Below are positions 27,550 to 54,289 of a stretch of 64,000 nucleotides of DNA, in pieces. The first letter of the stretch is position 1, and the number at the start of each line of letters is the position of its first letter. The translations under genes were made by a program, and so were the position numbers. Below the pieces are notes generated by a model. That model saw only the letters and a list, made by a program, of their open reading frames with translations. It had not been told where the DNA came from and searched no databases. The stretch is from Polytrichum commune. Its lineage: Eukaryota; Streptophyta; Polytrichopsida; Polytrichales; Polytrichaceae. The stretch covers positions 39,020,527 to 39,084,526 of the forward strand of contig OX485808.1 of NCBI GenBank assembly GCA_950295325.1, written 5' to 3'.

Positions 27550-28053
27550 ATGGAGCAAATGGAACTAGAGCATTTGAGTTCCGAGGAGGTGAGTTATTCT
27601 TGTAGTTTGTAATGTGATGTAAACTTAATGTGGTATTAGGGGTTTTACGTTAAGGGTAAACATATTATCATGATTCTACAATGCAAGGATCATCACTCTC
27701 TGAAGCGGTATTTACGGAAGACGAGGCCGATGTTGGCATTGAGGACATTGATGTAGATTGCAGCGGGCTTAAAAAGGAGGATGCTTGTAAACGCGACCGG
27801 CCTAAATTTGGCAAAAAGAATTTGCCGTAATGTCAATCCAATGGATTGTGTGGAAGACAAGTGTCTTGGAGAAGATAATGTGGGTGTGCTTATTATGGAG
27901 CCATTGGAGGGAATGATGGACATGGGATGGGTGTTCTCCTTACGAATGTGGCCCCTTACTTGTGTTTATCACCAGAGGTATACTCTTACACACCACCTCC
28001 TAGTGAGCACACGCAGGTTGTGTGTGCAAACCACATTGCTAGAAAGACGGAAG
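27550..28053 (+). pseudogene. 5' part of a DUF7869-type transposase-like gene, cut by the retrotransposon
   Basis: A start ATG at 27550 opens a 13-codon exon ending at GAG|GTGAGT. A second exon after ATGCAAG reads an acidic then basic chain (TEDEADVGIEDIDVD, KKEDACKRDRPKFGKK). A third segment ends at the insertion site. Removing one GGAAG copy, the frame of the third segment continues into the frame open at 46036. The phase of the first junction does not fit simply, so exon borders are tentative. Confidence 0.4.
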
Positions 28054-28089
28054 TGTTAAGCATAACATTATGAATCACAAGAGACTTCA

Positions 28090-28233
28090 AATGGAACTGA
28101 GAAAATTGCAAAGCAAAGACAGACCCTAACCCATCACAATGGAATTGAGACAATTGCAAAGCAAAGACAGACCCTAACCCATCACAATGGAATTGAGACA
28201 ATTGCAAAGCAAAGACAGACCCTAACCCATCAC
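28090..28233. repeat. 48-bp unit, three tandem copies in the U3 of the 5' LTR
   Basis: Copies 28090-28137, 28138-28185 and 28186-28233. The first differs at two positions (GGAACTGAGAAAATT against GGAATTGAGACAATT). Confidence 0.97.
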
Positions 28234-28894
28234 CGGAATGAAGAGGAGCTAACACCGAACAGAAGCTCGAAAGCTTGGGAGCTCTCGGCCTCGGGCTTAG
28301 GAGAGCGGCCACGGGAATAGGCCCTCTTTCCCGCGGCTTTACAAGGAGGACGCACGGCTTTAGGAGCCGGTACCTACGGCTATAGGATCCCAGCGCATTA
28401 ACCAAGGGGATTAAGTATTTAGCAAAGGGGATTAAGTACTTAGCACAAGGGAACTTTAAATTAGAAATACTTAGTAAGTATGAAGGACTTATAATAGGAT
28501 TATAGGGGTATATTAGAATGTTGAGGATGTATGAATATCCGAAGAGACATAATTATGGAATATATTAGAATGTAGGATTTTGAGAACATGATTATAAGAA
28601 TTTTAGATTCTTATGATACATAGACACTATGAAGACATTAAGGATAATATAGGAATAGGGTACATTCTACGAGCATGTTCCAAGTACCAAATATCGGAAT
28701 TGATACAATCAAAGATTTGATTGACTATCAAGGAGAATATAGTGAAATCTTGGTAGTGAGGACATTAGTATAGCAAAATGGTTGTAACCGTTTATGATAG
28801 ATAGAATCTACATATTTTGAAGATAGTTAGTTATCTAGAAAAATAGTGATAACAACCACTATTATTATGGATTCAAGGATAGGAAGAAAAAAAC

Positions 28895-28902
28895 TATATA
28901 AG
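28895..28902 (+). promoter_or_regulatory. probable LTR TATA box
   Basis: TATATAAG, about 840 bp into the LTR, followed by a region suited to a transcription start. The same box lies at 44710-44717 in the other LTR. Confidence 0.6.
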
Positions 28903-30221
28903 GGAAACAAATTAGGAGACCTACACCTCATTTTATACACAACGAAGTTATCTTAAATTTGAGTGTCAAGAATCACTTGAAGCTTTTGTAACTCTCCTCT
29001 CGAGGAACCTTTGCAATACATTTATCTTTTCTACAAATGTGTGTGACCTTTCTACCTCTCTCTCAAATTGTCTTACAAAGTTTGTCAAGCAGTACTTGGA
29101 ACTTGAGTGATTGAGCAACCGAGAGTAGAGTAGATTGAGTAGACTCTTTTGAGAAAGAACTCAAAAGATAGTGCGAGGGTGAGAACAAAGCGCTCAAGAC
29201 AAATTGGAGAATCAATGGGACTTTGAGAGAGATTGAATTGAGAAAGCGATTGTTAAACTTGAGTGAAAGAAACAAGATTATCTCTCAAAGCGGAACTTAT
29301 CATTGATCTCCTCAAAAGGGAATTATAAATATACATGTGATTGAATGATTGAAGAATTATATGCATGTTTAAAGCAAAACCACTTAACGATTACAAACTC
29401 CTTCAAAAGATGAGGAGCTTATTATTGAAAACTACATAATTGACTTATAAGTATTATACTACATATTGATTGTTGAACTTGTGATTGACAAGAATGATGA
29501 AGACATTAATTCACATCAAAGTTTGAATACATATGAATGAAGTAATATTGATATAAGATAATCTACTTACTACAATTGTTATTGAAGCTTCTTACTTTAA
29601 GATTCTTTGTGAGTTGTTGGATGTCATTACAATTTGAAGGATTATCTATTCAAGAAAAGATCTCTCTCTCTCTTGAGCAAAACTCAAGAGAGATAGGTTT
29701 ACTTCTCGTCATCAAGAAACACTTTGAAGTTAAACGTGACATTGCAAAACAATCAATGATGTGTTCATGAAATTATAACCACTATATATATACATGTCAA
29801 GTTACAATATTATAAGTAGTAACACTTGAGCTTAAAAAGGAAGACTCAAGAATATTAGATCTTCCTCATCGTTATAAGATTATTATCAATTGTGTAATTG
29901 ATGTGTATGAACTACAAAACTTAATGATTCATAGAACTTATTGAAACTATATGCTATTGTTACACCTCTTGAAGCTTTCTTAAATCTAAAGGTTCTTATT
30001 GTCAATGATGCCTTACATTGAGAACAAGAACTAAGATAATGAGATTGTGTTCACTCCGATAATATATTCATACCATAAGGAGAAGAGAGGAGTTATTAAA
30101 TTGAGGACCGAACATATTAATGAGGCACGGTAGTTCTCAAGCGAATATAAATTTACGTGATGAGCATCGTGAGTCTTCTTAGCTAATTTTGCAAAGGAAC
30201 GACCCACGGCGTCCATCATTT

Positions 30222-30239
30222 TGGCGACCATGCTGGGGA
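30222..30239 (+). other. primer-binding site
   Basis: TGGCGACCATGCTGGGGA starts 3 nt after the LTR. TGG pairs with the CCA end of a tRNA. The exact tRNA needs a database match. Confidence 0.75.
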
Positions 30240-30419
30240 TTCTTGCCATTAATGTGTCTCGGTGATTTTTAAGTGTGAAAGGGACGAAAGCGGAGGTTCT
30301 TGGCGAATGCGTTAACTAAGCACGTGGAGAATTACGCCAAGAAGAGCGGATAACCGCAACGTCATATCTACCAATTGGAACTTAACACGATTCGGAGATA
30401 ATGCGCCTTACTAGTAAGA

Positions 30420-31687
30420 ATGTCAAATGAGAAGAGACATACGGAAGACGACCGGGAGATACGTGATACGTTGAATGAATTAAACTTCATCACTTTTTGC
30501 GAGGCGATACTCAAGGAGACCGAAATTCAAGAGAAATTCTATCAAGTGGAGAATGAGGAATCCCTACTTTACAAATTGTGGCACACAACGGAAGAAATTT
30601 CAAATGAGCAACAACTCCAATTGGAACATTAAACCAAAAGAAACTAGAGCAAACAACAAAGAAGAACTAGTATCGAATTGGCCATGGGAATATCCAAACT
30701 ACATCAAAGAATCTAACCAAGAAGGAGAATGGACTAGCACCAACCGATTTCTCGGATTAATCATATGTATGAACCGATTATACATCAACCAAGCGGTGAG
30801 ATGTTTTGAAGAAAGGCGAATTAGTTTCACGTACCGATCGGAGTTTGAAAGAAGAATCAACGAGTTACCCGAAGAGTTACAAGCTATCATTTTCTCGAAA
30901 GTGTGGAACAAAGGCAAGGATACATTGTGGGAGTGCATGCCGGGAACAACGAAGCAAAGTGGGTACCATTATAATCAAGAAGGGTTCCTTTACGACTTAT
31001 ACTACACACGAGTAATGGTACCAACTATGATCAATGATTCCTTGGTTTGAAAACATCCATTGCCACGATAACTTACGAGAAAGATTAGAAGAAGGATCCA
31101 AAGAAAAGCAATTAATTGGACCACTTGAAGCCTCATACATCGAAGAATCAATTCTAAAAAGAATTGAGGATTCAAACGTAAAGGGATTATTTGTGATCGA
31201 GGATCTTATAGAAGACATAGGAGATGCGAGTCATTGGCCTTGGGAATACCCAAAGTTTAATTGGGACAAAAAGGTACTAACTCAATATGAAGGAGTAAAG
31301 AGGTTCCATGACTTGATGTGGAACATGCACAAAGTATACAAGAAGAGAGCAACCAAGAATTTCGTCAAGAAGCAAATAGGATTTACTTATCGATCGGAGT
31401 TTGAGAGGAGACTCTACGAACTACCGGAAGATCTACAAGCAAAGATATTCTCAAAAGTGTGGAATCACGGGAGAATTGGAACCGGAAAGTGGGCGAAAGA
31501 CGCCACAAGTCATAGAGGATACCACTACCCAAAAGAGGGACTATTATACAACATCTATTTTGAAAAGGTGATGATTAAACTCTACAACGGACTAGAAAGA
31601 TTGGAGAAGAGTGAGCGGGAGGTGACCACGATTAGAAGATCAAAACGTATAGCAAAAGAGAATTCATTGGGGAGAAAGAGAGACTAG
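30420..31687 (+). CDS. pre-gag ORFs with a duplicated WPWEYP...FSKVWN domain
   Basis: Three overlapping open stretches in three frames (30420-30632, 30553-31050, 31034-31687). Two copies of a domain are seen 556 bp apart. Copy 1 is SNWPWEYPNYIK ... FTYRSEFERRINELPEEL..IIFSKVWN. Copy 2 is SHWPWEYPKFNW ... FTYRSEFERRLYELPEDL..KIFSKVWN. Both end in a GYHY..EG.LY segment. Copy 2 is intact and ends in a basic tail (RRSKRIAKENSLGRKRD). Copy 1 is spread over two frames, so it carries frameshifts or was never one chain. I do not recognise the domain. Its place between PBS and gag suggests an accessory protein or a gag N-terminal precursor. Confidence 0.55.
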
Positions 31688-31696
31688 ATTAAGAAT

Positions 31697-32186
31697 ATCC
31701 TAAGAGTTGTACTAGCGAAAGGATGAGATAGATACACATAATTGAAGCCGGGAGGGCCGATTAGGGGTGATCTTGGGTCATGCTAAGTAGCGTTAACGTA
31801 CGACAAAGAGGAAGAGAAAATTAAATTGAGTGTTTCCTAAGAACCGTACTAGCGAAAGGATGAATATAGGTGCACATAGTTGAAGCCGGGAGGGCCAACT
31901 AGGGTGATCTAAGATCATGCTAAGTAGTGTTAATGTACGACGAAGAGGAAGACACTAGGGAACGAAGCCGTTCGCCGCCATCTAGGAGAGAGGCCGAGGC
32001 CGAACGTAGGCACATTAACCGTATGCAACACGGAGTAAACCCCAATAGCGAGGAAGGGCCAACTAGGGTGATCTAAGATCATGCTAAGTAGTGTTAATGT
32101 ACGACGAAGAGGAAGACACTAGGGAATGAAGCCGTTCGCCGCCATCTAGGAGAGAGGCCGAGGCCGAACGTAGGCACATTAACCGT
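31697..32186. repeat. tandem repeats in the retrotransposon leader
   Basis: A block with GTACTAGCGAAAGGATGA and GAAGCCGGGAGGGCC occurs twice (about 31710 and 31848). A block with GGGCCAACTAGGGTGATCTAAGATCATGC through the gag start codon region occurs twice about 154 bp apart (31898-32050 and 32056-32220). The gag ATG is therefore duplicated; the upstream copy (near 32022) soon runs into a stop. Confidence 0.85.
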
Positions 32187-35100
32187 ATGCAACACGGAGT
32201 AAACCCCAATAGCGAGGAAGGAAGAGCCGAGAGACAAAGAAGAGAGAGAGCGGAACGATACGAGAGACGGGCAAAACAAAGAGCCGAAGGTCTTGAAGTA
32301 TCTAGATCACCATCCCCATCACTAACAAACGATAATCTAGACCGACCATCACCTTACGAATACGGAGATATAAATAGAGAGGAGCAAGGAGATACCGTCA
32401 CTCCATTAGGAACATTCGAGACATACAATAGAGAGGGAATACCCCGGAATATTAATTTCGATCAAGACACACAAGAAAGTATAATAGAAAACGAAAATTC
32501 GACAACAACTCAAAGTGAGGAACCAACATCAAGACAAGTCAACCAAGCCTTTGAAGAATTTTTACAACAAGTAAGAGCTAGTGAACAAGCATTCAACTAT
32601 AGGGTACCAATTAATAGCACAACAAGTTCCGGGACAACAACATTAGGAACAAACCTCGGACATTCCGGAGGAGGAAGAGGAAGTGGAACTATAGCAATGT
32701 CGGGAGGAGCACCACCTCCCCCGAGAAGAGGGAAGATACCTCTTCCCACATACAAAGGAAAAGAGGATCCGGACACGTACATACAAGAGTATGTCAATAT
32801 ATGTCATGCCAATCAAGAAGGAACCGATGCGGAGAAACTAAGATTGTTTCCGGTGACTCTAAAGAAAAAGGCACTAGAATGGTACACTCAATTTCCCGCA
32901 AATCACTTTTTGAATTGGAACGATTTAAAGACAACTTTTATCCAACGTTTCCGATCAACCAAATCGGAAGGGGAGATCATCAACAACTTGTCACATGTAA
33001 AACAAAAGAAAGATAAATCGGTGGAAGAGTTTTATGAGCGAGTAATGGTAGCGGCGGCTAAAATTCAACCCGCACCGGGAGAACAAATTAGAAAAACTTG
33101 GTTCATAAATGGACTAAGGAAAGAATACGAGAAGTATGTGAACATTTTACCAAGTGATACTTTGGAAGAGGCACTAGCTTCGGCACGAAAAATTGAAATG
33201 AGCAAAACTAAGAAAGAGAGAATGAAAGAAGACGAATCAAGTGAAGATTCAAGTAGCGATTCCGACGGAGAAGCGCGGAGAAAGAAGAAAAAGGGAAAGG
33301 CTAAGAAAGCCGAAATTACCAAAGATGATCTAAAAGCCCTTAAACAAGAGATAGAGGAACTAGCAATCGGAACTCGGAAGTTTAGGACGGGAGTCACTTG
33401 CCGGAGATGCCACAACGAAGGCCATTATCCAAACGAGTGCCAATTAAAGAGTTGCACAAATTGCAATAGTACTACCCACAATACAAACGAATGTGTTTAT
33501 GATGGAAGAAGGCGAGAAAGGAGATATGGAGTGAATCAAGTACAACCACAATTTAACAACAACCGGAGAAGGGCGGGAGCCGAACCTCCGAGATTTAGAG
33601 ATGAAGATAGACCGCGGTTCGGGGAGAATCGGCGAGATATGAGATACCCCTATCAAGGGAGAGATAAGCAAAGGGATGAAGAATACCCCTATCACGGGCA
33701 GGAATACCGAAGAGGAGATCGGTACCCGTATGACAATTACCGGAGGGAAGCGACATACCCCTACCGAAGCCAATACTACCCAAGGGAAGAAGCATACCCC
33801 TTTACAGGCGGCCCTAGAGGACCTATTAATCACGGGAGATTGGAATACCCAAGAGATGTGATGGACAACAATGGCCAAAAAGCCGCGCCGAGAATCGGGT
33901 ACACTGGCCTACCGCGACGGGAAGGCAACGCCGACGAGTGCTATTATTGTCATCAACAGGGTCATAGAAAGCCGGAGTGCTCATTGTTTAGGAAACATCA
34001 AGATGAAGCGAATGAATACGCGAAGAAGCCCATGGTGGCGGCAAATGTAGTGACACCAAGTGTGTGTGTGATGACGAGAGCCCAAAGAGCGGCGAAAGAA
34101 AACTCTAAGGAAGAGAGTGAATCGGAAGATGAAGAAGATGATAGAAAGAGCGAAGACTCGGAGAATAGCGATAGTGATGATGAAAAGGATACCATAAAGG
34201 TTATGGATGAAGAAAGCGAAGAGCTTAGTGAGAATGAGAATGAGCCAAAGAATAGGCGAAAAGAACACGAGTCACAAGTGTTGCGGGATGCACCGGAGGA
34301 CTCGGAGTGGAAGAAGAAGCGGGAGATACACCGCCAAGTAACGAATACGATCAAGGAGATCCAACGGGAAGCGGGCGAAGATCTTTTAGAGCCAGAAGAC
34401 CTGGCCCCAAAGTACCGAAAGTCAGCTAAGGAAAAAGCGACGAAAGAAGAACCCCGGACGAGGGTAGGACAAATTATTCGAAAAGTACTAGATTCAACTC
34501 AAGCAAATATCACGATAGGGCAACTTTTGGAGATAGCCCCTTATTGTAAAAGAAAAGTAATGGAAGCAATTTGTACGAACGGGCGAGATGAGAGGGAAGT
34601 ACCTCAAACATATCTCGTAGCCACGAAAGACTTTGATGAAGAAATGCCGATGATAACGGTATGGACTAAGAATCGACGAATATCCAACGTGTTACTAGAT
34701 GGAGGATCGGGAGTGAATATTATTACGGACACTTTGATGGATAAATTGGGAATAGAAAAACAACTTGAAGTGGCACCATTTACAATCAAAATGGCGGATC
34801 AAAGGAAGGTAACGCCACTTGGGATCATCAAGAATTTGAAAATCAATATTGGAGGATTAACTTTTAAGATCACCGTGACGGTGATAAGGATGGAGAATCA
34901 AGAGAATAGTTACTCAATGCTACTTGGACGACCATGGCTTAAGCAAGCACGTGCCAAGCATGATTGGGGAAAGAGTCAACTAATTTTGTATCAAAATGGA
35001 ATAGATGTATGTATTGGTACTAATCGAAGACCAAAACTTCCGGATTCATCAAGACCAATCAATATCGAAGGATTTGATTGGGAAGCCGGATTAACTGATG

Positions 35101-36821
35101 AAGAGGAACAAGTAGTTTATCAAGCTTATCCAAGTTTACATTACATAGCGGATGTGGAACTTGATGGATTAAAGCAATTATACGAAACCGAATGCAATAT
35201 GGTCATGACAAGTATTGAAGGAGAAAACGTGGAAAACGTCAACAAGAAATCAAAAGCAATTGTCAAGAAGGAGAAACAAGTTCCCAAGCTCAAAGAAGGA
35301 ACTCCAAAACAAAAGGAAGACATGGGAGAGAAACCGGTCTATCCACCTCACTTTTATGAGATGAAGGAAGGAGAACAAGCGATCGATCGAACACCAGCAT
35401 CCGAAGCGGTGAAAGGAAAGACAATCGCCGGATGGACCATTGAAGATGAAGATATGATAAAGGAGATTAATTTGGGAACAACGGAGGATCCAAAAATGGT
35501 ACGAATAGGAAAGGAACTTGACCCTACCTATGAAAACCAAGTGATTGAGATACTCAGGGATTACAAGGATGTATTCGCATGGACGTATGAAGATATGAAA
35601 GGGATACCACCTCACATTTGTGAACACAAGATAGAGCTCAAACCGAATACCAAGCCGATCAAGCAAAGTAGATATCGAATGAATCCGAATTATGCGGCGA
35701 AGGTGAAAGAGGAGATTAACAAATTACTAAAGGCCGGATTCATATACCCGGTAGATAGAGCGGAATGGCTTTCACCGATAGTGATAGTACCAAAGAAAAA
35801 TGGAAAGTTAAGAGTATGCGTAGATTATCGGAAACTCAATGGAGCAACAAAATCCGACCCATTTCCATTACCATTCACGGAGGAGATTCTTGAGACGGTA
35901 GCCGGACACGAGATGTTGTCACTACTAGACGGGTTTAGTGGTTACAATCAAGTGAGGGTAGCACCGGAGGATCAACCGAAAACTTGTTTTATCACGGAAT
36001 GGGGAGCTTATGCTACTAGAGTGATGTCGTTCGGACTAATGAGCGCGCCATCCACTTTTCAAAGGGGAGTGATGACGATATTCGCGGAATTTCTAAATGA
36101 TTTTATGAAAGTATTTTTGGACGATTTTAGTATATATGGGACAAAGGCGGATCATATCAAACACCTTAAGCTTTGTCTTCAACGATGTAGAGAGTGTGGA
36201 TTAAGTCTTAATCCGGAGAAATGCATGATTTGTGTGACCTCGGGGAGATTACTTGGTCATGTGGTTTGCAAAGAGGGACTTTTGATAGATCCCAAAAAGA
36301 TCTCCGTGATTCAAAACTTACCACCACCAACAAATGTCAAAAGTTTACGAGCATTCTTAGGCTCGGTAACATACCATAGGAGATTCATATGGATGTTTGC
36401 ACAAATTACGAGACCTCTTTATGCTCTCCTCAAAAATGATGAAGCATTCGAATGGACGACAAATTGCCAACAAACATTTGAACTAGTCAAGAGACTTCTT
36501 ACAACAACACCAATATTAATGGCTCCAAATTGGTCAATGGAATTCCATGTCCATTGTGATGCATCAAACATAGCCATTGGAGCGGTACTAGCGCAAAAGG
36601 TGAATGGGAACATCGACTCGCCGATTTACTACGCAAGCCGATTATTAAATCAAGCAGAGAAAAATTATAGCACGACGGAACGAGAAGCCTTAGCAATGGT
36701 ATATTCGGTAAACAAATTCCGACACTACCTTTTGGCAAATCATTTCGTGTTTTACGTGGATCATCAAGCATTGTTATACTTGATAAATAGACCGATAATA
36801 TCGGGGAGAATCGCAAGATGA
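32187..36821 (+). CDS. gag-protease-reverse transcriptase-RNase H polyprotein (first part)
   Basis: 1544 codons. Gag has PLPTYKGKEDPDTYIQEY, ALEWYTQF and RFRSTKSEGEIINNL. Three CCHC knuckles follow: CRRCHNEGHYPNEC (residue 405 on), CTNCNSTTHNTNEC, and CYYCHQQGHRKPEC at 33939. Between knuckles 2 and 3 is a five-fold (R/E/T/A)YPY-type repeat. An acidic helical linker leads to the protease (LLDGGSGVNIIT, D838), then RT with PKKNGKLRVCVDYRKLN and FLDDFSIYG (D1312-D1313), and RNase H with HCDASNIAIGAVLAQ (D1458). The TGA at 36819-36821 sits where related elements have W in RIARW, and the same frame continues directly. It therefore breaks one polyprotein, probably TGG to TGA. The start is the ATG 32187 after the leader repeats. 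Confidence 0.9.
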   Translation: MQHGVNPNSEEGRAERQRRERAERYERRAKQRAEGLEVSRSPSPSLTNDNLDRPSPYEYGDINREEQGDTVTPLGTFETYNREGIPRNINFDQDTQESIIENENSTTTQSEEPTSRQVNQAFEEFLQQVRASEQAFNYRVPINSTTSSGTTTLGTNLGHSGGGRGSGTIAMSGGAPPPPRRGKIPLPTYKGKEDPDTYIQEYVNICHANQEGTDAEKLRLFPVTLKKKALEWYTQFPANHFLNWNDLKTTFIQRFRSTKSEGEIINNLSHVKQKKDKSVEEFYERVMVAAAKIQPAPGEQIRKTWFINGLRKEYEKYVNILPSDTLEEALASARKIEMSKTKKERMKEDESSEDSSSDSDGEARRKKKKGKAKKAEITKDDLKALKQEIEELAIGTRKFRTGVTCRRCHNEGHYPNECQLKSCTNCNSTTHNTNECVYDGRRRERRYGVNQVQPQFNNNRRRAGAEPPRFRDEDRPRFGENRRDMRYPYQGRDKQRDEEYPYHGQEYRRGDRYPYDNYRREATYPYRSQYYPREEAYPFTGGPRGPINHGRLEYPRDVMDNNGQKAAPRIGYTGLPRREGNADECYYCHQQGHRKPECSLFRKHQDEANEYAKKPMVAANVVTPSVCVMTRAQRAAKENSKEESESEDEEDDRKSEDSENSDSDDEKDTIKVMDEESEELSENENEPKNRRKEHESQVLRDAPEDSEWKKKREIHRQVTNTIKEIQREAGEDLLEPEDLAPKYRKSAKEKATKEEPRTRVGQIIRKVLDSTQANITIGQLLEIAPYCKRKVMEAICTNGRDEREVPQTYLVATKDFDEEMPMITVWTKNRRISNVLLDGGSGVNIITDTLMDKLGIEKQLEVAPFTIKMADQRKVTPLGIIKNLKINIGGLTFKITVTVIRMENQENSYSMLLGRPWLKQARAKHDWGKSQLILYQNGIDVCIGTNRRPKLPDSSRPINIEGFDWEAGLTDEEEQVVYQAYPSLHYIADVELDGLKQLYETECNMVMTSIEGENVENVNKKSKAIVKKEKQVPKLKEGTPKQKEDMGEKPVYPPHFYEMKEGEQAIDRTPASEAVKGKTIAGWTIEDEDMIKEINLGTTEDPKMVRIGKELDPTYENQVIEILRDYKDVFAWTYEDMKGIPPHICEHKIELKPNTKPIKQSRYRMNPNYAAKVKEEINKLLKAGFIYPVDRAEWLSPIVIVPKKNGKLRVCVDYRKLNGATKSDPFPLPFTEEILETVAGHEMLSLLDGFSGYNQVRVAPEDQPKTCFITEWGAYATRVMSFGLMSAPSTFQRGVMTIFAEFLNDFMKVFLDDFSIYGTKADHIKHLKLCLQRCRECGLSLNPEKCMICVTSGRLLGHVVCKEGLLIDPKKISVIQNLPPPTNVKSLRAFLGSVTYHRRFIWMFAQITRPLYALLKNDEAFEWTTNCQQTFELVKRLLTTTPILMAPNWSMEFHVHCDASNIAIGAVLAQKVNGNIDSPIYYASRLLNQAEKNYSTTEREALAMVYSVNKFRHYLLANHFVFYVDHQALLYLINRPIISGRIAR

Positions 36822-39800
36822 ATGCTTCTCTTGCAAGAGTACGATTTTGAGATTGTGTATATGCCCGGAAGACGACACGTGATGGCGGATCACCTCTCAA
36901 GAATCGACAATGGAGAACCACCCACCGGAGTAAACAACCAACTACCGGATGCGAATTTGTTTTGTATGGAGGTACTAGAGAAAGAAGATGATTACATGGA
37001 AGAAAAGGAGAAATCAAGTGAAGAAAATAAGCAAGGAAAGGAAAATGTGACACCATGTCTCGAATGGTACATGGTATATACTCAACCAACAGAGGATTGG
37101 AGAAAACCGTTCAAGGAATATCTCAAGCATGGAAGATTGATAACAATTGGAACAACGGAAGAAGAGCAAACACGCATAAGAAGAGCGAGTGAACCTTACA
37201 TGATGGATGGCGAAAAATTGATACGAATTTCTCCTAGTGGAGAATCAAAAACATGCATAGAGGGACAAATTATTGAGGAGATCATTTCGGAAGCACATGA
37301 ACAAGAAGGGCGACATCAAACGTTTGAAGACACATGGTTCACTATACTAAGTGGACCTTATTGGTGGCCAACAAGAAAAAGAGACGTAGCGAGTTATTGC
37401 GGAGATTGTCCGGTTTGTTTACAACAAAATGAAGGACGAGTACATGAACAAGAAAACGACACTTTAATATTAGATTCAAATACGGAGGATGAATCAACCA
37501 CGGAGGAAAATCATGCTACGGATTGGAGAACGCCCTACTTTGAGTACTTGAGAAATAGACAAGTACGTGGAGAGAATATTACAAACGAAAAGCAACTTCA
37601 ATGGGCAAACAAATGCAAACGGTTCGTTCTCGATAGAGGAACATTGATAAGATTACTACCCAACGGAGATACGCGAATATGCGTTACACGAAGCCGAGGA
37701 GGAAAACTAATAGCGGCAACACACAACGGAAAAGGAAAACACTTAACCTTACCAATGACTAAACAATTAATATTCTTTAGTCCTTATTGGTGGCCAATGA
37801 TTGACGAAGACATCAAATATCATGCGGAATACGAATGTGAAGAATGCATGTTACAACTCGATGGGAAGCAAGAAGAGATGAATCTAAAAGGGAAACAAAC
37901 GACTACATCAAAGGAGATATCACCATTGGATTGGAGAAAACCTTACGTCGAATACTTATCATTCGGAAAGGTAACTAGTAACGATTTGACCGAAGAAGAG
38001 AAAGAACGAATTGCGAATAGAAGCCAATTCTTCGCCATCATAAATGGCAAACTAATGAGGCAATTTGTTGCCAACGAAAAACCAAAAGAATGCATATCGG
38101 AGAATCGGATTCAAGGACTCTTAAAGGAACTTCATGAAAAACAGCAAACATGTGAAGAAATGATAAAGGAAGCGTCACAAGGACCATATTGGTGGCCTAC
38201 AATGACTCGCGACATTCAAAGTTTCATCAAGCAATACAACCAAAGAAATGGTACTTCAACAATGCAACAAAAGAATGGTTCAACCAAAATAGATTGGAGA
38301 GTACCAATAATGGAATGTTTGAACAATGGAGAAACCGAGAATCAAAATCTATTGGAAGAGGAAAATGAAACTTACTTTATGGAAGAAGGAGAATTACGAA
38401 AGGGAGTAAATCAAGGAGAAAGCAAAATATGTATCGCGGAAGATCAAATCAACCATCTACTCAAAAGGGTACATGAGCAAAATGGTTATCATCTCAACTC
38501 AAACGATACAATTCAACAAATTCTCAACGGGCCCTATTGGTGGCCTACTATAGCACAAGACACGGAACATTACATTAATGGAGAATGTCCGAGATGTAAG
38601 AAGAGAGCAACAACTAAGATACAATGCGGAGCGATTACCACCGATCCACAAGAGGATTGGAGGATACCAATTACTGACTACTTGTCGCACGGGAGATTGA
38701 CAACACCGGCAACAATTTCTCAAAGACAACAAATAGCGATAAGAAGTAGACCTTTTCAACTCATCAACGGAGACCAATTAATCAAAGAAGGAGCCGATGG
38801 TATAAAAAGACGATGTGTATCCGGACCAATTACTGAGGCAATCATCGCCGAAGCACATAAAGGTATTGCGGGAGGACATTTTGCAGCAAACATCACATTA
38901 CACAAAATATTAACGGCTCTTTATTGGTGGCCTACGATGAAAAGGGACGTGTACTTATATTGCAAACGATGTGACATATGTCAAAGAGTGGGACCAAAAG
39001 TATCAAAGTCCGCACAACCATTACACCCAATTATGCCTACAGAGGTGTTTCAAAGATGGGGATTGGATTTTATAGGACCAATCAATCCGCCGGCTAAAGG
39101 TACCAAAAATCGATACATTATTACCGCCACGGATTACACTACCAAATGGGTTGAAGCGAGAGCACTAAAGGATAACACCGCGGCATCTACCGCGAAATTT
39201 ATATTTGAGGAGATCATCACCAAATTCGGATGTCCGATTGAACTAGTTAGTGACCAAGGGAGTCACTTTCTAAATGAGACAATCCAAATCTTAACCAAGA
39301 CATTTATGGTCTTACATCGAAAATCGACAACTTACTATCCTCAAGCCAACGGACAAGCAGAGAGCACCAACAAAGTCATTAAAACAACGCTTACTAAGAT
39401 GGTAAACGCCAATCGCACGGATTGGGACACAAAACTATATGCGGCATTATGGGCATATAGAACGGCATATAAAGTCACCACCAAGCATACACCATTTTCA
39501 TTGGTATTTGGAACGGAAGCATTACTTCCATTGACATTCATTTACCACGAGAAGAATCTACAAAGGAGTCAAGAATGGCATCCCGTTCTTAAACAGAGAA
39601 TGGAACAATTAAGGACATTAGATTTGACCCGTATCGAAGCGGAGGAAAATATCGAGCATACTCAAACCATGAGAAAAAGGAGACAAGATAAAACGTTAAT
39701 TGAAGGCAAGAGGTGCAAACATTGCAAGAAAACCTCTTTTGACACTACGGAGAAAAATGAGAATACTCATCAAGCAATGGAAAAATCAAAAGGGAACAAA

Positions 39801-40964
39801 ATTCTTAAGTTCTTCAAGGGTCAAAAGATTTTATGGCATCAACACATGAACAAACCCGGCCCAGGCAAATTCCGAATTCGATGGAGTGGACCTTATGAAA
39901 TTACGGAAGTTTACGGTAACAACACCGTAGATGTGAGCACATTACAAGGAGAAAATCTTGGAAGGGTAAACATGAGTAAGATTAAACCTTACCATGAACC
40001 CCTTGAAGCCAAAGCCTTTGTTTTAGAAGTTGATGACGCCGCAAACTCATCACTTGACAATACAAGTACAAATTCTATAAACGGATCCATTGATACCAAC
40101 CACCACAAAGGAGAATCAAGCCATTCAAGAAAAACATGTTCATTTTACAAAGGACAAAGAGTGGTGACCAAACATATATCTAACAACCGAGTCAATATAC
40201 CTTATGAGAAACAAGAAGGAGTGGGACCGTACATTGTCACAAGAATTCATGATGACGATACCATTGAAATCAAGACCATTCATCAAAAACAATTGGGACG
40301 ATGGCGATCAAAGATGTTTTTACCATATGACAGGGTTAATCCCAACCAAGTTCACACTTACGATCAAGGAGGAATGGAGATTTTGACATCCCCGGAATAC
40401 GACGAGATCCACCATAAAATGTTGGAATGTTATTCCATTCAAACCACAGCAAGAGAAGTTCGCAACGGAACAATTAAAACAAAGGAAAGTTTTCTTATTC
40501 AGACCCTACCAAGAGCGAAGGTTAAGAAAGATTCAACCAATGGCGTATCAACAACGAGAACCGGCGGGTTAATTACTCAAACAAAGGGAGATGATTGCAA
40601 AGGCATTAGATCACACACATACGGAGATTCAACTACAAGCACAATTTACGATGATGATACAACCATCTCCACAACACATGCCAATAACGATCATAAAACG
40701 GCCTCTATGCTAACCATAATATGGTTACGACATGTGTGTGAGAATTGGTACTTAATACTTATGGTGCTAATTAATCTCGTTTGGTACTTAACCCAATGGA
40801 GCTCATATATTCAGTTACCAAACGATTACTTGACAAAAGAAGTTACCCAGTCCATGAAACCACAAAGTAATTACATACACATGCAAGATTTTACCAGAGG
40901 TCATCAAACACAGGAAAATCTACAGGAAAGAATACCAAGCAGGTTTAAACTGTTCTTAAAATAA
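36822..40964 (+). CDS. RNase H end, five H2C2 modules, integrase core and two GPY/F-like modules
   Basis: Same frame as the upstream ORF. It starts with the RNase H end (DFEIVYMPGRRHVMADHLSRI). Five tandem modules follow, each beginning DWR and ending near YWWP plus a Cys pair: 37095, 37521, 37929, 38292 and 38655 (363-426 nt apart). Zinc ligands: module 1 H-x5-H...CPVC, module 2 H-x5-H...CEEC, module 3 H-x5-C with no Cys pair, module 4 H-x5-H...CPRC, module 5 H-x6-H...CDIC. Module 5 is the normal integrase N-terminal domain. The core has D749 (GLDFIGP), D811 (VSDQGSHF) and E847 (GQAEST), so D-x61-D-x35-E. GPY/F-like modules follow at about 39887 (WSGPYEI) and 40224 (GVGPYIV). A hydrophobic segment (NWYLILMVLINLVWYL, 40739-40786) could cross a membrane. 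Confidence 0.9.
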   Translation: MLLLQEYDFEIVYMPGRRHVMADHLSRIDNGEPPTGVNNQLPDANLFCMEVLEKEDDYMEEKEKSSEENKQGKENVTPCLEWYMVYTQPTEDWRKPFKEYLKHGRLITIGTTEEEQTRIRRASEPYMMDGEKLIRISPSGESKTCIEGQIIEEIISEAHEQEGRHQTFEDTWFTILSGPYWWPTRKRDVASYCGDCPVCLQQNEGRVHEQENDTLILDSNTEDESTTEENHATDWRTPYFEYLRNRQVRGENITNEKQLQWANKCKRFVLDRGTLIRLLPNGDTRICVTRSRGGKLIAATHNGKGKHLTLPMTKQLIFFSPYWWPMIDEDIKYHAEYECEECMLQLDGKQEEMNLKGKQTTTSKEISPLDWRKPYVEYLSFGKVTSNDLTEEEKERIANRSQFFAIINGKLMRQFVANEKPKECISENRIQGLLKELHEKQQTCEEMIKEASQGPYWWPTMTRDIQSFIKQYNQRNGTSTMQQKNGSTKIDWRVPIMECLNNGETENQNLLEEENETYFMEEGELRKGVNQGESKICIAEDQINHLLKRVHEQNGYHLNSNDTIQQILNGPYWWPTIAQDTEHYINGECPRCKKRATTKIQCGAITTDPQEDWRIPITDYLSHGRLTTPATISQRQQIAIRSRPFQLINGDQLIKEGADGIKRRCVSGPITEAIIAEAHKGIAGGHFAANITLHKILTALYWWPTMKRDVYLYCKRCDICQRVGPKVSKSAQPLHPIMPTEVFQRWGLDFIGPINPPAKGTKNRYIITATDYTTKWVEARALKDNTAASTAKFIFEEIITKFGCPIELVSDQGSHFLNETIQILTKTFMVLHRKSTTYYPQANGQAESTNKVIKTTLTKMVNANRTDWDTKLYAALWAYRTAYKVTTKHTPFSLVFGTEALLPLTFIYHEKNLQRSQEWHPVLKQRMEQLRTLDLTRIEAEENIEHTQTMRKRRQDKTLIEGKRCKHCKKTSFDTTEKNENTHQAMEKSKGNKILKFFKGQKILWHQHMNKPGPGKFRIRWSGPYEITEVYGNNTVDVSTLQGENLGRVNMSKIKPYHEPLEAKAFVLEVDDAANSSLDNTSTNSINGSIDTNHHKGESSHSRKTCSFYKGQRVVTKHISNNRVNIPYEKQEGVGPYIVTRIHDDDTIEIKTIHQKQLGRWRSKMFLPYDRVNPNQVHTYDQGGMEILTSPEYDEIHHKMLECYSIQTTAREVRNGTIKTKESFLIQTLPRAKVKKDSTNGVSTTRTGGLITQTKGDDCKGIRSHTYGDSTTSTIYDDDTTISTTHANNDHKTASMLTIIWLRHVCENWYLILMVLINLVWYLTQWSSYIQLPNDYLTKEVTQSMKPQSNYIHMQDFTRGHQTQENLQERIPSRFKLFLK

Positions 40965-41631
40965 GCATTCAAATCCAATTTAGTTTTTACTGGAGGGGTC
41001 CGCGCAAGGCGAACCCCAAGAAAGGCGAGAACACTGCACAAGGCAGCGTTCTCTTTAATGTTTATCTGCACAAAATACACCACACGTCAGAACTTGTTAG
41101 CACAAACAGGTATTACAACCAAGACGGATAGAACATGTCATAGCACCAGTACGCCACCTCAAAGCCAGGTCAATAGTCAACAGACTAAAGAAACCAGCTG
41201 GAACTGCCACCCAACCATGAGGGAAGTAACAGAATTACCCAAAACCATCATTAGCAGAACACCAGTAACAGAATCGACCCGGCTATTTGGGGGAAGAACT
41301 ACAAGCTTTGTCTTTCTTTCCAAAGTAATCCAGCCCAAACTCTGCCCAAGTTTGTTTTGCTTAAGCCATTTCGAAGGGATCACAGACTTTCAGAGAGCGA
41401 GTCAGTTTAGCAATAATCACAGGGTGATTAAGTCCATATGTTCAGGTCCTGAGTCCAGAGAATGTTGCAGAGCACGACAGTTACCAGTTAGCTCAGATTT
41501 CGGCAACTTGCAAGCACTTCATAGATTGCAGCATAAAATCAAGGCGCATTATATAGCTGTTCAGCATAGTAGAACCAGGATAGAGGTCAGCAAGATGAGG
41601 TTTAACACCCAAAGACAAGGGCAAATCAGTA

Positions 41632-43932
41632 ATGACAAGATCCATTGATGAGATTGTTTTCAGCACTGACATGGCCGCATTAGACTTCGAACCCAACAGG
41701 GAAGAGGAAACCTTTTTGCAGATAATAGGTTTAGATAGGTTCATAACAAGAGTCACCTGGGAAATACTGAATGAACAGGTAGTGAGAGAGGTCATTGCTA
41801 ACCTCAACACAGAGACAATGGAGACCAAACTCAATGGGCAGATCATACCAATATTCAGTAAAACGTGGCGGCAGAAAATGAAGGCGGTGTTTTACTTAAA
41901 CACATTCCTCGCAAAAAGGGAGCCAGGTACACCACGAGTCCATGCAGCCGACATTTTTCCAAACATCAAGGAGAAAATGCGGAACAAGCTCGGGACATGC
42001 AAAATCAACGACTGTACAATACCAGAGGCAAGAAAACCTTTGAAATTCTTCAATTCTTTATTTCTGTTGAGAACAAGTCCCACCACCATATCATGCACAG
42101 CAGTAGCGCATATTCAGGATGCCTTGAACGGGAAAGAAGTGGACTGGCCAGCACTCTTCTTGGAACACATCAAATTGGAACTGATTTCTCTTAAAGAGGG
42201 ACTCTTCAAGGACAGAAATACAAGCATGAGGACCCTTGTAGGGCCTCCACTTACCATGTTACTAATCAATGAGGGATTCCTCACTGTTCAACAAGAAATT
42301 TCGGCGGGTATCCTAATGCCGGCCGAGTTAACCGAAAAACCAGCCTCGAAGAAACGCAAATTGGAAACAGAAATGGAACTCATCAGGGGAGAACCATCAG
42401 ATCAGAAAGAGGTACCAAATCTGTTAGTAGCCATGGCAAAACCAATCTCAGCTCAATCGGCCATAACAGAGTCATGCGCAGCCCAACCAATTCCGGCTCC
42501 AGCTGCCGAAACGACCCCAGGAGCGGCTCTGCACAAAACAGAGTTGACCAAGATATTAGAAAGATTCACACAGACCACCCAGATGTTGAGCAACTGGGTC
42601 ACACAAACAAAGGAATCAAAAGAAACTATTGTTACAAACAAGGATACTACAGTCATATCTCAAACACTCCTCCAGAATCAGAAAACGGCACTTGAAACAC
42701 AGTTACAGCAAATCCAAGAGCAATTCAAAGCAGCCACAAGTAAGATTGAGGGACTCAACATTGCTGCCGAAACCCGGAAGAAAGCGCTACAGGAGAAATG
42801 GAACTCTTACAGAGAACAGGTAACCAAGGCAGCACAAGAAATCAACCACCTCCGAACTACATGCCTTGGTGTTAAACAAATAGCCCTTGATCAGATCCAA
42901 GTATTCTCAAAAGGGATCGAAGAACTCAAAACAGAGTTCAAAACAATCAAGGATTCCGAACTTTCAGAGTCAGATCGAGCAATGGCACTAACGAAGATAG
43001 AAGCATTCGACCACTGGATTGATGGCCAATCTGAAACCAAGGAGCAAATGACAGCCAAATTGTTACTTGAAAGGGTAACAACAAAAATGGCTCACACATT
43101 TCATAACCTCAAAGCGGCACTGAACCAAGTGACTACAGAACGTGACGAATTACAAACCAAATTGGACCAGATCGAGGAAGATCGAGCTGAATCTCAGAAT
43201 TGGCACCAGATATTGGATGTCAACACAATAGAAGACCCCACAAATGCCATCACCACCATAACACGCAATCTGGCTCCGCCCATCAGCATTTTTCAGTATT
43301 ACAGGGCATTCAAACCCCTCATCCTGCAACAAAGTAACCTGCCGGATATTCGACTTAAAAGCCAATTCACAAGAGACCAATTCAGATCGATTTGGAGAAA
43401 AGCCAACCCAGCCGCAAAGGATCTGATTACTTTCATGTGGGTCTTAAAGGACTTATACATCCCAAAAGGCGTACTAGAGGTTACATCAGCGAATCCTTCA
43501 TTCTACCTTACTCGTTTTTGCATAAGAGCTTTGATTCATATCAGCCAGCATCACAACGAGTTCTATTCGAACATCGAAAATCGAAATTCTCTACCTCAGA
43601 TAGAGCCCTACAGCTTGGAAATGACAAAAGAGATCCAGAATATGACTACAGAGAACTTCCCTGAGTTTTTGTCCGCACTGGACGAATTGGCACAAGAAGA
43701 AACCTCACAACTGCATGAAGCTGCCCAGCACCACCAAAACCTCAGTCGGAAGCAACCGGATTCATTTCCAGTCACATTTCAGAGGATACAGTTGCATGGA
43801 TACATTACTAGGGCATTGGAAGACAGGAAACACACTTTGGAGCAGAAGCAAATCCTAACTCCGCACGCCAGGACACTTCTCTATCTTCCACAGTACGACC
43901 CCGGGAGCATGAAGATTGTGAAACGATCATGA
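41632..43932 (+). CDS. ORF3 downstream of integrase, 766 aa, coiled coil, unknown role
   Basis: It starts at ATG 41632 and ends 30 bp before the purine tract. The N-terminal third (VREVIANLNTETMETKLNG, WPALFLEHIKLELISL, GPPLTMLLINEGFL) recalls the plant mobile-element domain of the Transposase_32 / aminotransferase-like type. This is a resemblance only. A basic patch KKRKLE and an Ala/Pro linker follow, then a long coiled coil (about residues 340-540, heptad-like QNQKTALETQLQQIQEQF). A helical C-terminal region contains QYYRAFKPL and FMWVLKDLYIP. No signal peptide or clear transmembrane segment, so it is not an obvious envelope gene despite its position. The spacer 40967-41631 holds an overlapping frame that I do not support. 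Confidence 0.7.
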   Translation: MTRSIDEIVFSTDMAALDFEPNREEETFLQIIGLDRFITRVTWEILNEQVVREVIANLNTETMETKLNGQIIPIFSKTWRQKMKAVFYLNTFLAKREPGTPRVHAADIFPNIKEKMRNKLGTCKINDCTIPEARKPLKFFNSLFLLRTSPTTISCTAVAHIQDALNGKEVDWPALFLEHIKLELISLKEGLFKDRNTSMRTLVGPPLTMLLINEGFLTVQQEISAGILMPAELTEKPASKKRKLETEMELIRGEPSDQKEVPNLLVAMAKPISAQSAITESCAAQPIPAPAAETTPGAALHKTELTKILERFTQTTQMLSNWVTQTKESKETIVTNKDTTVISQTLLQNQKTALETQLQQIQEQFKAATSKIEGLNIAAETRKKALQEKWNSYREQVTKAAQEINHLRTTCLGVKQIALDQIQVFSKGIEELKTEFKTIKDSELSESDRAMALTKIEAFDHWIDGQSETKEQMTAKLLLERVTTKMAHTFHNLKAALNQVTTERDELQTKLDQIEEDRAESQNWHQILDVNTIEDPTNAITTITRNLAPPISIFQYYRAFKPLILQQSNLPDIRLKSQFTRDQFRSIWRKANPAAKDLITFMWVLKDLYIPKGVLEVTSANPSFYLTRFCIRALIHISQHHNEFYSNIENRNSLPQIEPYSLEMTKEIQNMTTENFPEFLSALDELAQEETSQLHEAAQHHQNLSRKQPDSFPVTFQRIQLHGYITRALEDRKHTLEQKQILTPHARTLLYLPQYDPGSMKIVKRS

Positions 43933-43950
43933 GGGCAGGATCTCAGCCTT

Positions 43951-43964
43951 GGGGGGGAGTAAAA
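43951..43964 (+). other. polypurine tract
   Basis: GGGGGGGAGTAAAA directly before the 3' LTR TG, the plus-strand priming site. Confidence 0.9.
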
Positions 43965-46033
43965 TGTTAAGCATAACATTATGAATCACAAGAGACTTCA
44001 AATGGAATTGAGACAATTGCAAAGCAAAGACAGACCCTAACCCATCACCGGAATGAAGAGGAGCTAACACCGAACAGAAGCTCGAAAGCTTGGGAGCTCT
44101 CGGCCTCGGGCTTAGGAGAGCGGCCACGGGAATAGGCCCTCTTTCCCGCGGCTTTACAAGGAGGACGCACGGCTTTAGGAGCCGGTACCTACGGCTATAG
44201 GATCCCAGCGCATTAACCAAGGGGATTAAGTATTTAGCAAAGGGGATTAAGTACTTAGCACAAGGGAACTTTAAATTAGAAATACTTAGTAAGTATGAAG
44301 GACTTATAATAGGATTATAGGGGTATATTAGAATGTTGAGGATGTATGAATATCCGAAGAGACATAATTATGGAATATATTAGAATGTAGGATTTTGAGA
44401 ACATGATTATAAGAATTTTAGATTCTTATGATACATAGACACTATGAAGACATTAAGGATAATATAGGAATAGGGTACATTCTACGAGCATGTTCCAAGT
44501 ACCAAATATCGGAATTGATACAATCAAAGATTTGATTGACTATCAAGGAGAATATAGTGAAATCTTGGTAGTGAGGACATTAGTATAGCAAAATGGTTGT
44601 AACCGTTTATGATAGATAGAATCTACATATTTTGAAGATAGTTAGTTATCTAGAAAAATAGTGATAACAACCACTATTATTATGGATTCAAGGATAGGAA
44701 GAAAAAAACTATATAAGGGAAACAAATTAGGAGACCTACACCTCATTTTATACACAACGAAGTTATCTTAAATTTGAGTGTCAAGAATCACTTGAAGCTT
44801 TTGTAACTCTCCTCTCGAGGAACCTTTGCAATACATTTATCTTTTCTACAAATGTGTGTGACCTTTCTACCTCTCTCTCAAATTGTCTTACAAAGTTTGT
44901 CAAGCAGTACTTGGAACTTGAGTGATTGAGCAACCGAGAGTAGAGTAGATTGAGTAGACTCTTTTGAGAAAGAACTCAAAAGATAGTGCGAGGGTGAGAA
45001 CAAAGCGCTCAAGACAAATTGGAGAATCAATGGGACTTTGAGAGAGATTGAATTGAGAAAGCGATTGTTAAACTTGAGTGAAAGAAACAAGATTATCTCT
45101 CAAAGCGGAACTTATCATTGATCTCCTCAAAAGGGAATTATAAATATACATGTGATTGAATGATTGAAGAATTATATGCATGTTTAAAGCAAAACCACTT
45201 AACGATTACAAACTCCTTCAAAAGATGAGGAGCTTATTATTGAAAACTACATAATTGACTTATAAGTATTATACTACATATTGATTGTTGAACTTGTGAT
45301 TGACAAGAATGATGAAGACATTAATTCACATCAAAGTTTGAATACATATGAATGAAGTAATATTGATATAAGATAATCTACTTACTACAATTGTTATTGA
45401 AGCTTCTTACTTTAAGATTCTTTGTGAGTTGTTGGATGTCATTACAATTTGAAGGATTATCTATTCAAGAAAAGATCTCTCTCTCTCTTGAGCAAAACTC
45501 AAGAGAGATAGGTTTACTTCTCGTCATCAAGAAACACTTTGAAGTTAAACGTGACATTGCAAAACAATCAATGATGTGTTCATGAAATTATAACCACTAT
45601 ATATATACATGTCAAGTTACAATATTATAAGTAGTAACACTTGAGCTTAAAAAGGAAGACTCAAGAATATTAGATCTTCCTCATCGTTATAAGATTATTA
45701 TCAATTGTGTAATTGATGTGTATGAACTACAAAACTTAATGATTCATAGAACTTATTGAAACTATATGCTATTGTTACACCTCTTGAAGCTTTCTTAAAT
45801 CTAAAGGTTCTTATTGTCAATGATGCCTTACATTGAGAACAAGAACTAAGATAATGAGATTGTGTTCACTCCGATAATATATTCATACCATAAGGAGAAG
45901 AGAGGAGTTATTAAATTGAGGACCGAACATATTAATGAGGCACGGTAGTTCTCAAGCGAATATAAATTTACGTGATGAGCATCGTGAGTCTTCTTAGCTA
46001 ATTTTGCAAAGGAACGACCCACGGCGTCCATCA
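43965..46033 (+). repeat. 3' LTR (2069 bp)
   Basis: Near-identical to the 5' LTR along its length, with a single 48-bp unit near 43999-44048. Ends CCATCA before GGAAG. Confidence 0.96.
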
Positions 46034-48764
46034 GGAAGAAAGATGGGAAGAGGGCATATGTCACATCACGCACGACCTCCCAGAGTAGACCGACAAAAAA
46101 ATCCCAGATTCTCAATAATAATAGCATCCAACAACTATCAGCTAGTGAGTGTTGTGATAGGGAGTGCACTAGATATTTTCCCAGGGAAGAGGCACTTGCG
46201 CTACGAACTGAGTTTTACACTTGTTCTCCACGGATGAGACATGCTAAACAACTCGAGGTCCATGGCCAATTACATGTACTACCTGGATGCTCAACGAAGG
46301 TCGTTACCTTGTGTGGTCGCAATGTGTGTGAAAAAGCATGGAGACACATATTTGCCGTCTCCAAAACGACGTTCTATAGGAACCGTTCAGAATTCAAGAG
46401 CGGTATGCGTCCACGCGATCATGGGAACCTAAACATGAAACGGAATCGAATATCCACCCAACAAGCTACTGCAACACTTTACACTTTATTGGAAGACAAA
46501 GCAGATATGATGCCTCACAAGGCTCGTACATTGCCAAATGGCACACGTGTTGTTGAAATGGTATTGCCTCGCGGAACAAAATGGAAGAAGTTTTTGGTTA
46601 CAATCAATGAGGTAAACATTCGATATGACCCAATTATCCGCTTTGTATGTGTCGGTCAACCACGAGGTATGTTTGTGGGTATTTAATAGACACGAATGGG
46701 TAATCATTAACATATCATATATGATATGGATTGAGAAGCATGTGAAGTATTATTAATGTTAAGTTATTTCTATATGTGCAGGTTAATGAGAAATGTGGTG
46801 TGCTCCCAATCTCTCTTTCAACTTTGAGCAAAATTCGGAATACCTACTTTAAGCACTACATAAAGAAGAGGGTTGGTGACAATTTTGCTCGTTGTGGGAA
46901 GTGTGATTCGTTTTCCGCGATTATACTTCAACATGTGAAAGGTTCAACTGCACACACATGGTTTTCGAAACAATTGGAGAAGCACCAAGCGCAGCAAGAA
47001 TCAGCTCGCAATGCATACCGTTGCATGAGGGCTCTTTCAATTGAGCATCCCCGAAAGGTGTTGACGATTATTCACGACAAAATGGATCATGGTAAAACCG
47101 CATCTCCTTGCTTTGCCTCCAAGAACAAAGATACCGATATGTTTACAAAGCTACCACTTTCTGTAACAGGCATGATGGCACATGGACATGGAGATGAGAG
47201 ATATGCCCACTATGCACTGGACATGTACCCTAGAGATTGCAACCATACTGTAGGGTCATTCGCGAGACTTCTACGTGATTTGGAGGAACCACCAATGTCA
47301 TCATCCCGGAGTCTTTTTCATGGTGTTGGGCGGTCACCTCTTTATCGTGCTGTTATTCATGGGAGCGAAATATGTTTGCAAGGGTTATGAGCCCCACCCA
47401 CGGAGCCCATACCGGCAATTCCTCTTCCACCCATTCTGCACGTTCAGCTTGATAATTGCTGGAAGGACAACAAGTGTAAGTTCGTAAAGGCATTCTGGTC
47501 TATGCTCACGGCGAAAGAAATATTCACGGAGGTACATGTGTTTTATCTATTGGTTGGCCACACCCATGACGACATCGATGCATCATTTGGAAGATGGAGT
47601 ATGGACCTGCGCGAACACGACTACCCCACTATCCCCCTTCTCATGAAATTATACATGGATATGGAAAAGGTTCCTGTCATTTCACACATGATAGAGGAAC
47701 TTCCAGATTGGAGATCATACGTTAGTGAGCATATCCCAAGTGGTAAGGAGAAACTCATTGGGCACACAAAGGCTCAACAGTTCAAATTCTATGTCTGAGA
47801 TGATGGTTGGCCTGTTATGCAATACAAAGTGCTTAGCACGCATGAGGAGTGGTTGCCCAAAGACGGTGTGAAGATGTGGAAATCCAATATAAAAAGGGAG
47901 CCCTGTCTTCCATCCGGGGACCCCTTTCCTGCACCACCGCGCGGTATGGCAAAACTGGAGGAAGTGGTTGTGGGACTGCAAGGGTTCATTGACTATTGGC
48001 AATCAATATGTGACCATGACACGACAGGAGCATATATGGGTTCACACATGCATATTTTGTAGTACTGGATAGGGGTGAAGGAGGCATTAGAGACACCTCT
48101 CAGAAACGTATACACTGCTGGGCATGCATTATGGGAGGGATTCTGGCCACGGAGTAGGGTCGAAGCAGATGCACATCCATTCATGCAGAATGGAGAGCTT
48201 CGGGAAGAGCACCAACCGGACGACCATTATGTTGGTCCAGCAAACCTTCGTCCTGCAGCTGCTTTCCGCATTGCGGATAATGTGCATGAGGGGCATATGC
48301 TAATATTGCGTCCCCAAGAACAAGATATAGGTAGACCCATTTGGGTTTGTCGTGCTTTGTCTGGACCCAACTTGGCGGTCACGGGAGAGCATCCACGTCA
48401 AATACTTGTACAATGGTTCACTCCCACTTCAACCGCCAGAGACCTATCAAAGAAATGGAATGGCTGGGACTCAAATCCTAACTTCAAGTGGAAACGTGAT
48501 TTGAAGTACTCCGTTCCCGACTGGCAGCCAATCGATTGCATTTTGGCAGCTTGGCCTCTGCCAGAACATGAAGATGTGGAGCCCTTAAAGGTTACAATCC
48601 CAATAGAGCAAATTGGATTTGCCAAAGATAATCTTCGACGTTGTTCAACAACTGAGCGTGGGAACAGGGTGGGTGGGGTGGACGTCGAGGAGCCTAGTGG
48701 GCAACAGGGAGGCCGTGGACATGGAACTGGTAGACGTAAGTCTGGGGGACGCGCATCCCGGTGA
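46034..48764 (+). pseudogene. DUF7869-type transposase-like gene, 3' part, three in-frame stops
   Basis: The first exon is open from the insertion site to 46666 (GAG|GTATGT). It has a Cys-rich segment (SECCDRECTRYFPREE) and GRNVCEKAWRHIFAVSKTTFYRN, typical of the N-terminal part of this family. The second exon starts after TGTGCAG (46782) and stays in one frame to 48764 except for TGA 47388, TGA 47796 and TAG 48060. The RNase H-like residues are HDKMDHGKTASP, QLDNCWKDNK and LVGHTHDDIDASFGRW, matching the D, DN..NK and GHTH..D patterns of DUF7869. The C-terminal region has WVCRALSGPN and LVQWFTPT. The phase at 46666/46782 does not join cleanly, another sign of decay or of a different junction. 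Confidence 0.6.
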
Positions 48765-53825: not shown

Positions 53826-54289
53826 AATTTTTAGACTTTCCAAGGTGTGTTCTTAAGGGCATTGTACTTCCAAGTCTGTTAAGTTTAATACTAGGGCTCT
53901 CCAAGCTTAGAATACTTCGTCATGAACTAGGAGACATTAAAAATCGCTAACGATCCAAAGTTGACACAACTCCAAAGCAAGAAATATAATAGATCTATTT
54001 GAACTAAGTTTATAACATGTTTACCTACTTCATATTCCGAGATTTTTGGAAAAGTTGAATGAAGGTTCTTAGATTGCAGATACGAATTGCTTATTATCAG
54101 ATTTTACTCCTTTTTTTATTGTCAGAAGACTTGATATAGAATTCGAGTATTGAAAGAAACAACAACAAGAAAATCACCTCTCGAACACAACCTGGGTATA
54201 TTCCTATGAACAGAAGACTAAACTCTTCAAAGACGTGAAATACGTTACGATTTGCACCTGATAGAACCATATTTGAAAAGTGGATTGTC

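Follow-up and report, generated by a model that had tools for sequence, protein, structure and literature searches.

Tandem integrase N-terminal units in a Ty3/gypsy-type retrotransposon of Polytrichum commune and their possible role as an assembly scaffold

One zinc domain, one catalytic core and one C-terminal domain are described as common to the integrases of retroviruses and Ty3-type retrotransposons, and the number of subunits required in their intasomes differs greatly. The integrase of prototype foamy virus has a single N-terminal unit, and that of Ty3 (7q5b) is described with one N-terminal extension domain (NED) and one HHCC zinc domain. According to passages of PMC9065133, the N-terminal domains of integrases reach across the synapse and bring about tetramerisation, and excerpts of PMC8632968 describe a Ty3 extension domain that stabilises contacts with the long terminal repeat (LTR), with a reported contact to TFIIIC. 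Here we describe an LTR retrotransposon of Ty3/gypsy type from Polytrichum commune (28054-46033; 17,980 bp, with a 5-bp target duplication), which differs from Ty3 in carrying five such units and a second C-terminal-like domain. It lies in a stretch of 64,000 nucleotides, hereafter the window (assembly GCA_950295325.1, contig OX485808.1, positions 39,020,527 to 39,084,526, forward strand). The five modules depart from the single N-terminal HHCC that is usual, if not strictly defining, in Ty3/gypsy integrases. In the open-licence PMC full text, judged by titles and abstract openings, we noticed no paper on tandem integrase zinc modules, which does not show that they are absent from print.

The array (37095-38999) is situated between RNase H and the integrase core in open reading frame (ORF) 36822-40964, and each of its five tandem units consists of an N-terminal extension and an HHCC zinc domain. 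The modules are 107-115 residues long, begin with a DWR...YWWP signature (Table 1) and are spaced start to start by 142, 136, 121 and 121 codons. Five modules precede the core, as an earlier note made from the sequence had claimed; the array begins where that note placed it but ends at about 38999, not 38990. The zinc part closes with C..C in modules 1, 2, 4 and 5, which retain all four H-H-C-C ligands as had been stated. In module 3, for which ligand loss had been reported, the second His and both Cys are gone, but the first His is retained. Scored singly against Integrase_H2C2, a Pfam model independent of the present analysis with a cut-off of 25.5 bits, modules 1 to 5 reach 37.9, 13.8, 24.4, 31.8 and 57.0 bits. 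Modules 1, 4 and 5 pass on their own and module 3 falls narrowly below, so that the profile check proposed for modules 1-4 came out significant for 1 and 4, nearly so for 3, but not for 2. The whole ORF contains four Integrase_H2C2 stretches (family E 2e-38), and a purpose-built module hidden Markov model (HMM), built from an alignment that already includes the five window modules, detects all of them at 114-131 bits. The 632-codon array stretch is free of stops, a state reached by none of 2000 base shuffles. The window modules share 23-39% of their residues with one another. Where the first two bases of a fourfold codon match, the third base is the same at 28 of 91 sites, which is the level of chance (third-position identity 0.303), and since these sites are saturated the module duplications are old.

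Further arrays were found in related proteins, four with the window array as query and twelve with protein P0004 as query, P0004 included. These twelve proteins carry 3 to 7 modules each, some of them partial, which we assign to classes A to H. P0009 covers RNase H-A-B-C, P0008 A-D, P0004 A-G, P0001 C-H-core, and P0002 and P0007 D-H; their overlap gives RNase H-A-B-C-D-E-F-G-H-core. By this composite order, whose eight modules are not all present in any single protein, relatives of the window element appear to carry up to eight modules. An assembly artefact is ruled out, as array pieces occur in 12 proteins predicted from other contigs. P0010 retains E-G without module H or the integrase core, its array joining the C-terminal domain directly, and is likely an internal deletion derivative.

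The relationships among modules were assessed in a tree of 73 rows, from which modules under about 95 residues were excluded, so that it lacks the partial pieces of A, C, D, E, F and G; the 21 single modules used here and in the ligand counts were picked by us from reverse transcriptase (RT) matches. The accessory modules (A-G and 1-4; 41 rows) form one group with support of 99/99, within which module 1 joins A (97/89), module 3 joins E (95/76, unstarred) and module 4 is sister to F+G (94/95). Module 5 places with H and with the single modules of ordinary elements. A robustness tree under a simpler model, without three long rows (2_W_IN, s1_P0019, s1_P0115), recovers the same groupings at 94/88, 93/73 and 91/92, and the accessory group at 100/99. 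A recent private duplication, which would hold window modules 1-4 together and had been set beforehand as the refuter, is rejected by the approximately unbiased (AU) test (p = 0.008), in line with the low identity and the chance-level fourfold sites. The other groupings were named after the first tree had been viewed, so their p-values are optimistic: module 2 with B is neither shown nor rejected (p = 0.102), and module 4 with F alone is disfavoured (p = 0.0265), the best tree having module 4 beside F+G. The sequences show tandem duplication of the N-terminal unit, extension plus HHCC, which gave five copies in this element and, judged from fragments that overlap, eight in a sister lineage; at least modules 1, 3 and 4 predate the split of the two lineages, with residues conserved since. 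The array appears to be a long-standing, retained modification of a well-studied enzyme, not a one-copy accident.

Conservation was examined at the zinc ligands and along the array. Counted by alignment column, the set of four ligands is complete in 33 of 37 accessory modules (A 1/2, or 2/2 under a looser pattern; B 5/5; C 5/5; D 6/6; E 6/6; F 4/6; G 6/7), in 6/6 H modules, in 21/21 single modules and in four of the five window modules. When a module is set against the linker that follows it in the same protein pair, the module is the better conserved in 65 of 72 cases (means 0.69 vs 0.47, Wilcoxon p 3e-12), in which pairs are non-independent and linkers short. The selection on the copies suggested earlier is supported at residue level by this ligand conservation in relatives and by the slower change of modules. 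The modules also differ in charge. Net charge is positive in 20 of 21 single modules, in all six H modules and in window module 5; it is negative in the penultimate module, namely module 4, six of seven G modules, and those of the two-module proteins P0043 (-4) and P0044 (-3), described below. F modules, one further upstream than G, are negative in 6/6, and acidity extends beyond the penultimate place to module 1, A (-7 and 2) and D (-4 to 5). This charge pattern was spotted post hoc and comprises few independent cases.

In fold models, a structural aligner matched modules 1, 4 and 5 to the integrase N-termini of foamy virus, Ty3 or murine leukaemia virus, which assigns them to the NED-HHCC type. 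The N-terminal part is modelled as the DWR... helices and a hairpin, and the models of modules 2 and 3 have a secondary structure like that of the others. Prototype foamy virus integrase (3l2q and related entries) shares the NED and HHCC fold and provides the best fold matches; it is also the best sequence match of an array-plus-core profile, at positions 619-847 only.

RT relatives were taken as the best 120 of 3132 matches from 7973 scored candidates; many of these 120 proteins are truncated. Twenty show no module, 87 show one (near full-length in 73), in keeping with the earlier statement that retroelement integrases usually have one H2C2 domain, and 13 show two or more, in tandem in P0043 and P0044 and far apart in the other 11. 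P0016 is counted among the 87, its protein stopping within module A, and probably belongs to the array lineage. A quick RT tree with SH-aLRT support only, made from the 48 highest-identity of 121 rows (window included; alignments of at least 300 residues), joins the window element to P0016 (SH-aLRT 98; RT 75% identical), followed by a branch that includes the one-module P0019 (SH-aLRT 88). P0043 and P0044 fall elsewhere, beside P0073, which has one module. They resemble the window element in their tandem NED-HHCC units, acidic before basic, but have two units only; a shared origin with the array is disfavoured by the module tree (AU p = 0.0235) and by the separate RT placement, and they probably arose independently. 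Named RT relatives among the matches listed include Riccia, Marchantia, Adiantum and PITA entries, the last presumably Pinus taeda, with Tripterygium, fish and pseudoscorpion at lower identity; taken together, these relatives would point to a plant host.

We tentatively postulate that the tandem-duplicated upstream modules serve as a multivalent scaffold for intasome assembly. The usual crossing of the synapse and holding of the LTR ends would fall to module 5/H, which is similar to the single modules of ordinary elements, and the upstream modules would be domain-sized beads on loose linkers, providing extra N-terminal domains in cis on each chain. The assignment of module 5/H as the working N-terminus, with the others adding valency, draws on the N-terminal domain roles given in parts of PMC9065133 and PMC8632968. 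Such a scaffold could support assembly and contacts with the LTR ends where other integrases recruit more subunits. Basic beads (2, B, C, E) could touch DNA, and the acidic beads adjoining the canonical module (4, F, G) may more likely dock on basic protein surfaces. If an assembly role is true, stoichiometry could be changed within a chain rather than by added chains. The further-reaching proposal, that this integrase lineage carries its own assembly scaffold, in which between five and eight specialised N-terminal domains on the same chain replace those of additional subunits, and that acidic modules arose on two or more occasions next to the canonical basic module, perhaps to clamp or regulate from within, we regard as rather unlikely. 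Multimer assembly, target choice and LTR-end binding, the roles named in the earlier note, are putative roles only; its observation is confirmed and its interpretation partly supported. Integrases with one, two, five and apparently eight N-terminal units make up a natural test set for synapsis, LTR binding and target choice.

Several observations weigh against the scaffold. No integrase aligned to modules 2 and 3 among the structural-aligner matches listed, Foldseek gave no match of E < 0.001, and module 2 alone is clearly under the Integrase_H2C2 cut-off (E 0.063). Rooting with single modules puts module 5 outside H and all accessory modules (99/89, 73-row tree), a less than simple history that may reflect gene conversion, rate effects or error; an earlier 27-row tree without single modules joins 1/A to 5/H (85/92). 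Between lineages, accessory identity is 26-44% (3/E, 4/F/G), 31-34% (2/B) and 53-55% (1/A), and that of 5/H 67-77%. Zinc ligands are lost in window module 3 and in module F of P0002 and P0007, so zinc is not needed by every bead. An open frame would be expected even for idle modules, the array being in frame upstream of the core, and residue-level conservation is more telling.

Neutral retention and target choice are serious rivals to the scaffold reading. Under a neutral ratchet, tandem duplications are easily gained and harmless modules persist, as the core behind them requires an open frame. The readiness of the element to duplicate favours this explanation: the domain in the upstream ORFs is present twice, a 164-bp unit is repeated in tandem, the LTRs contain 48-bp repeats, and there is a second C-terminal domain. 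Ligand loss in module 3 and the variation of module number between lineages point the same way. However, the four ligand columns are invariant in each of classes B-E vs 31-52% of other columns, linkers diverge faster than modules, and orthologous module order is kept between lineages with RT 75% identical; we consider this explanation rather unlikely. Alternatively, the accessory modules may direct integration through binding to chromatin or to a host factor, by analogy with the reported contact between the Ty3 extension domain and TFIIIC, a precedent taken from excerpts of PMC8632968. Classes A-G each retain their own sequence, as expected for different partners, and net charge varies among modules, but a single insertion cannot reveal a preference, and we judge a role in target choice rather unlikely. 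That a protease frees the array as a separate protein, for example for particle assembly or RNA or cDNA binding, would fit a 52-residue stretch of net charge -9 directly ahead of module 1 and P0010 with its E-G but neither module H nor core, yet P0010 may be a mere deletion derivative and this alternative is very improbable.

The element as a whole (Table 1) is a single insertion bounded by direct repeats 15.8 kb apart with TG...CA ends. The 5' LTR exceeds the 3' LTR by 96 bp, corresponding to two extra 48-bp repeat units, and the insertion would be young, since 2033 bp of LTR are identical between the copies. Pfam recovers the domain order gag-protease-RT-RNase H-integrase, which fits Ty3/gypsy; the protease scores 26.6 bits, under its cut-off of 28.2. 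The gag-pol frame (32130-40964) is broken by a single in-frame TGA (36819-36821) inside RNase H, upstream of the array, and the frame is open across the matching stretch in P0009 and P0016. The C-terminal domain at 39810-39998 is of the GPY/F type; inspection by eye of the P0003 and P0010 tails showed no counterpart of the second, diverged copy.

Table 1. Features of the retrotransposon (window positions).
Feature	Position	Strand	Remarks
5' LTR (TGTTAA...CCATCA)	28054..30218	+	2165 bp
3' LTR	43965..46033	+	2069 bp; 2033 bp matching 5' LTR without mismatch
Target site duplication GGAAG	left copy 28049..28053, right copy 46034-46038		
Two overlapping upstream ORFs	30484..31687	+	two copies of an uncharacterised domain, 44% identical over 117 aa, E 9e-36
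gag, protease, RT and RNase H portion of polyprotein	32130..36821	+	ORFs, Pfam
Module 1	37095..37436	+	groups with A; HHCC complete; net charge -5
Module 2	37521..37865	+	HHCC complete; lowest Pfam score of the five
Module 3	37929..38264	+	groups with E; three of four zinc ligands lost
Module 4	38292..38615	+	sister of F+G; HHCC complete; acidic, net -9
Module 5	38655..38999	+	equivalent of H, canonical N-terminal unit; HHCC complete; basic, net +8
Integrase catalytic core (rve)	39039..39341	+	Pfam
Integrase C-terminal domain, copy 1 (SH3-like)	39810..39998	+	
Second, diverged GPY/F-like domain	40143..40334	+	27% identical to copy 1, pairwise E 7e-9; fold model poor
Extra 777-aa ORF 3' of pol	41599..43932	+	ORF list, Pfam

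Tat elements carry an additional RNase H of archaeal type; in the five ORFs searched here, Pfam found the native RNase H families only. Sections of PMC6317226 and PMC10508981 present this added RNase H as a structural novelty of the OTA superclade (Athila, Tat), and do not mention a repeated integrase N-terminus. The window element shares with that superclade a large size, extra ORFs and large LTRs, which are frequent but non-defining there and found in many plant non-chromoviruses, size and target site duplication being of little classification value (portions of PMC6317226). With Pfam matches accepted up to E 1, ORF 36822-40964 contains no chromodomain, which the same portions report at the integrase C-terminus of 94% of chromoviruses.

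Up to an E of 1, the upstream ORFs match no Pfam family, and their domain contains the motif FTYRSEFERR. A 164-bp tandem direct repeat (31888-32215; two copies, 99% identical) overlaps the start of the gag-pol frame. The 777-aa ORF has no Pfam family above its cut-off and gives the impression of a possible coiled coil. Elsewhere in the window, a long low-complexity stretch (12563-14414) translates into HTHT/HSHS repeats, and two adjacent protein-kinase ORFs (PF07714) are located downstream of the element at 52194-55594.
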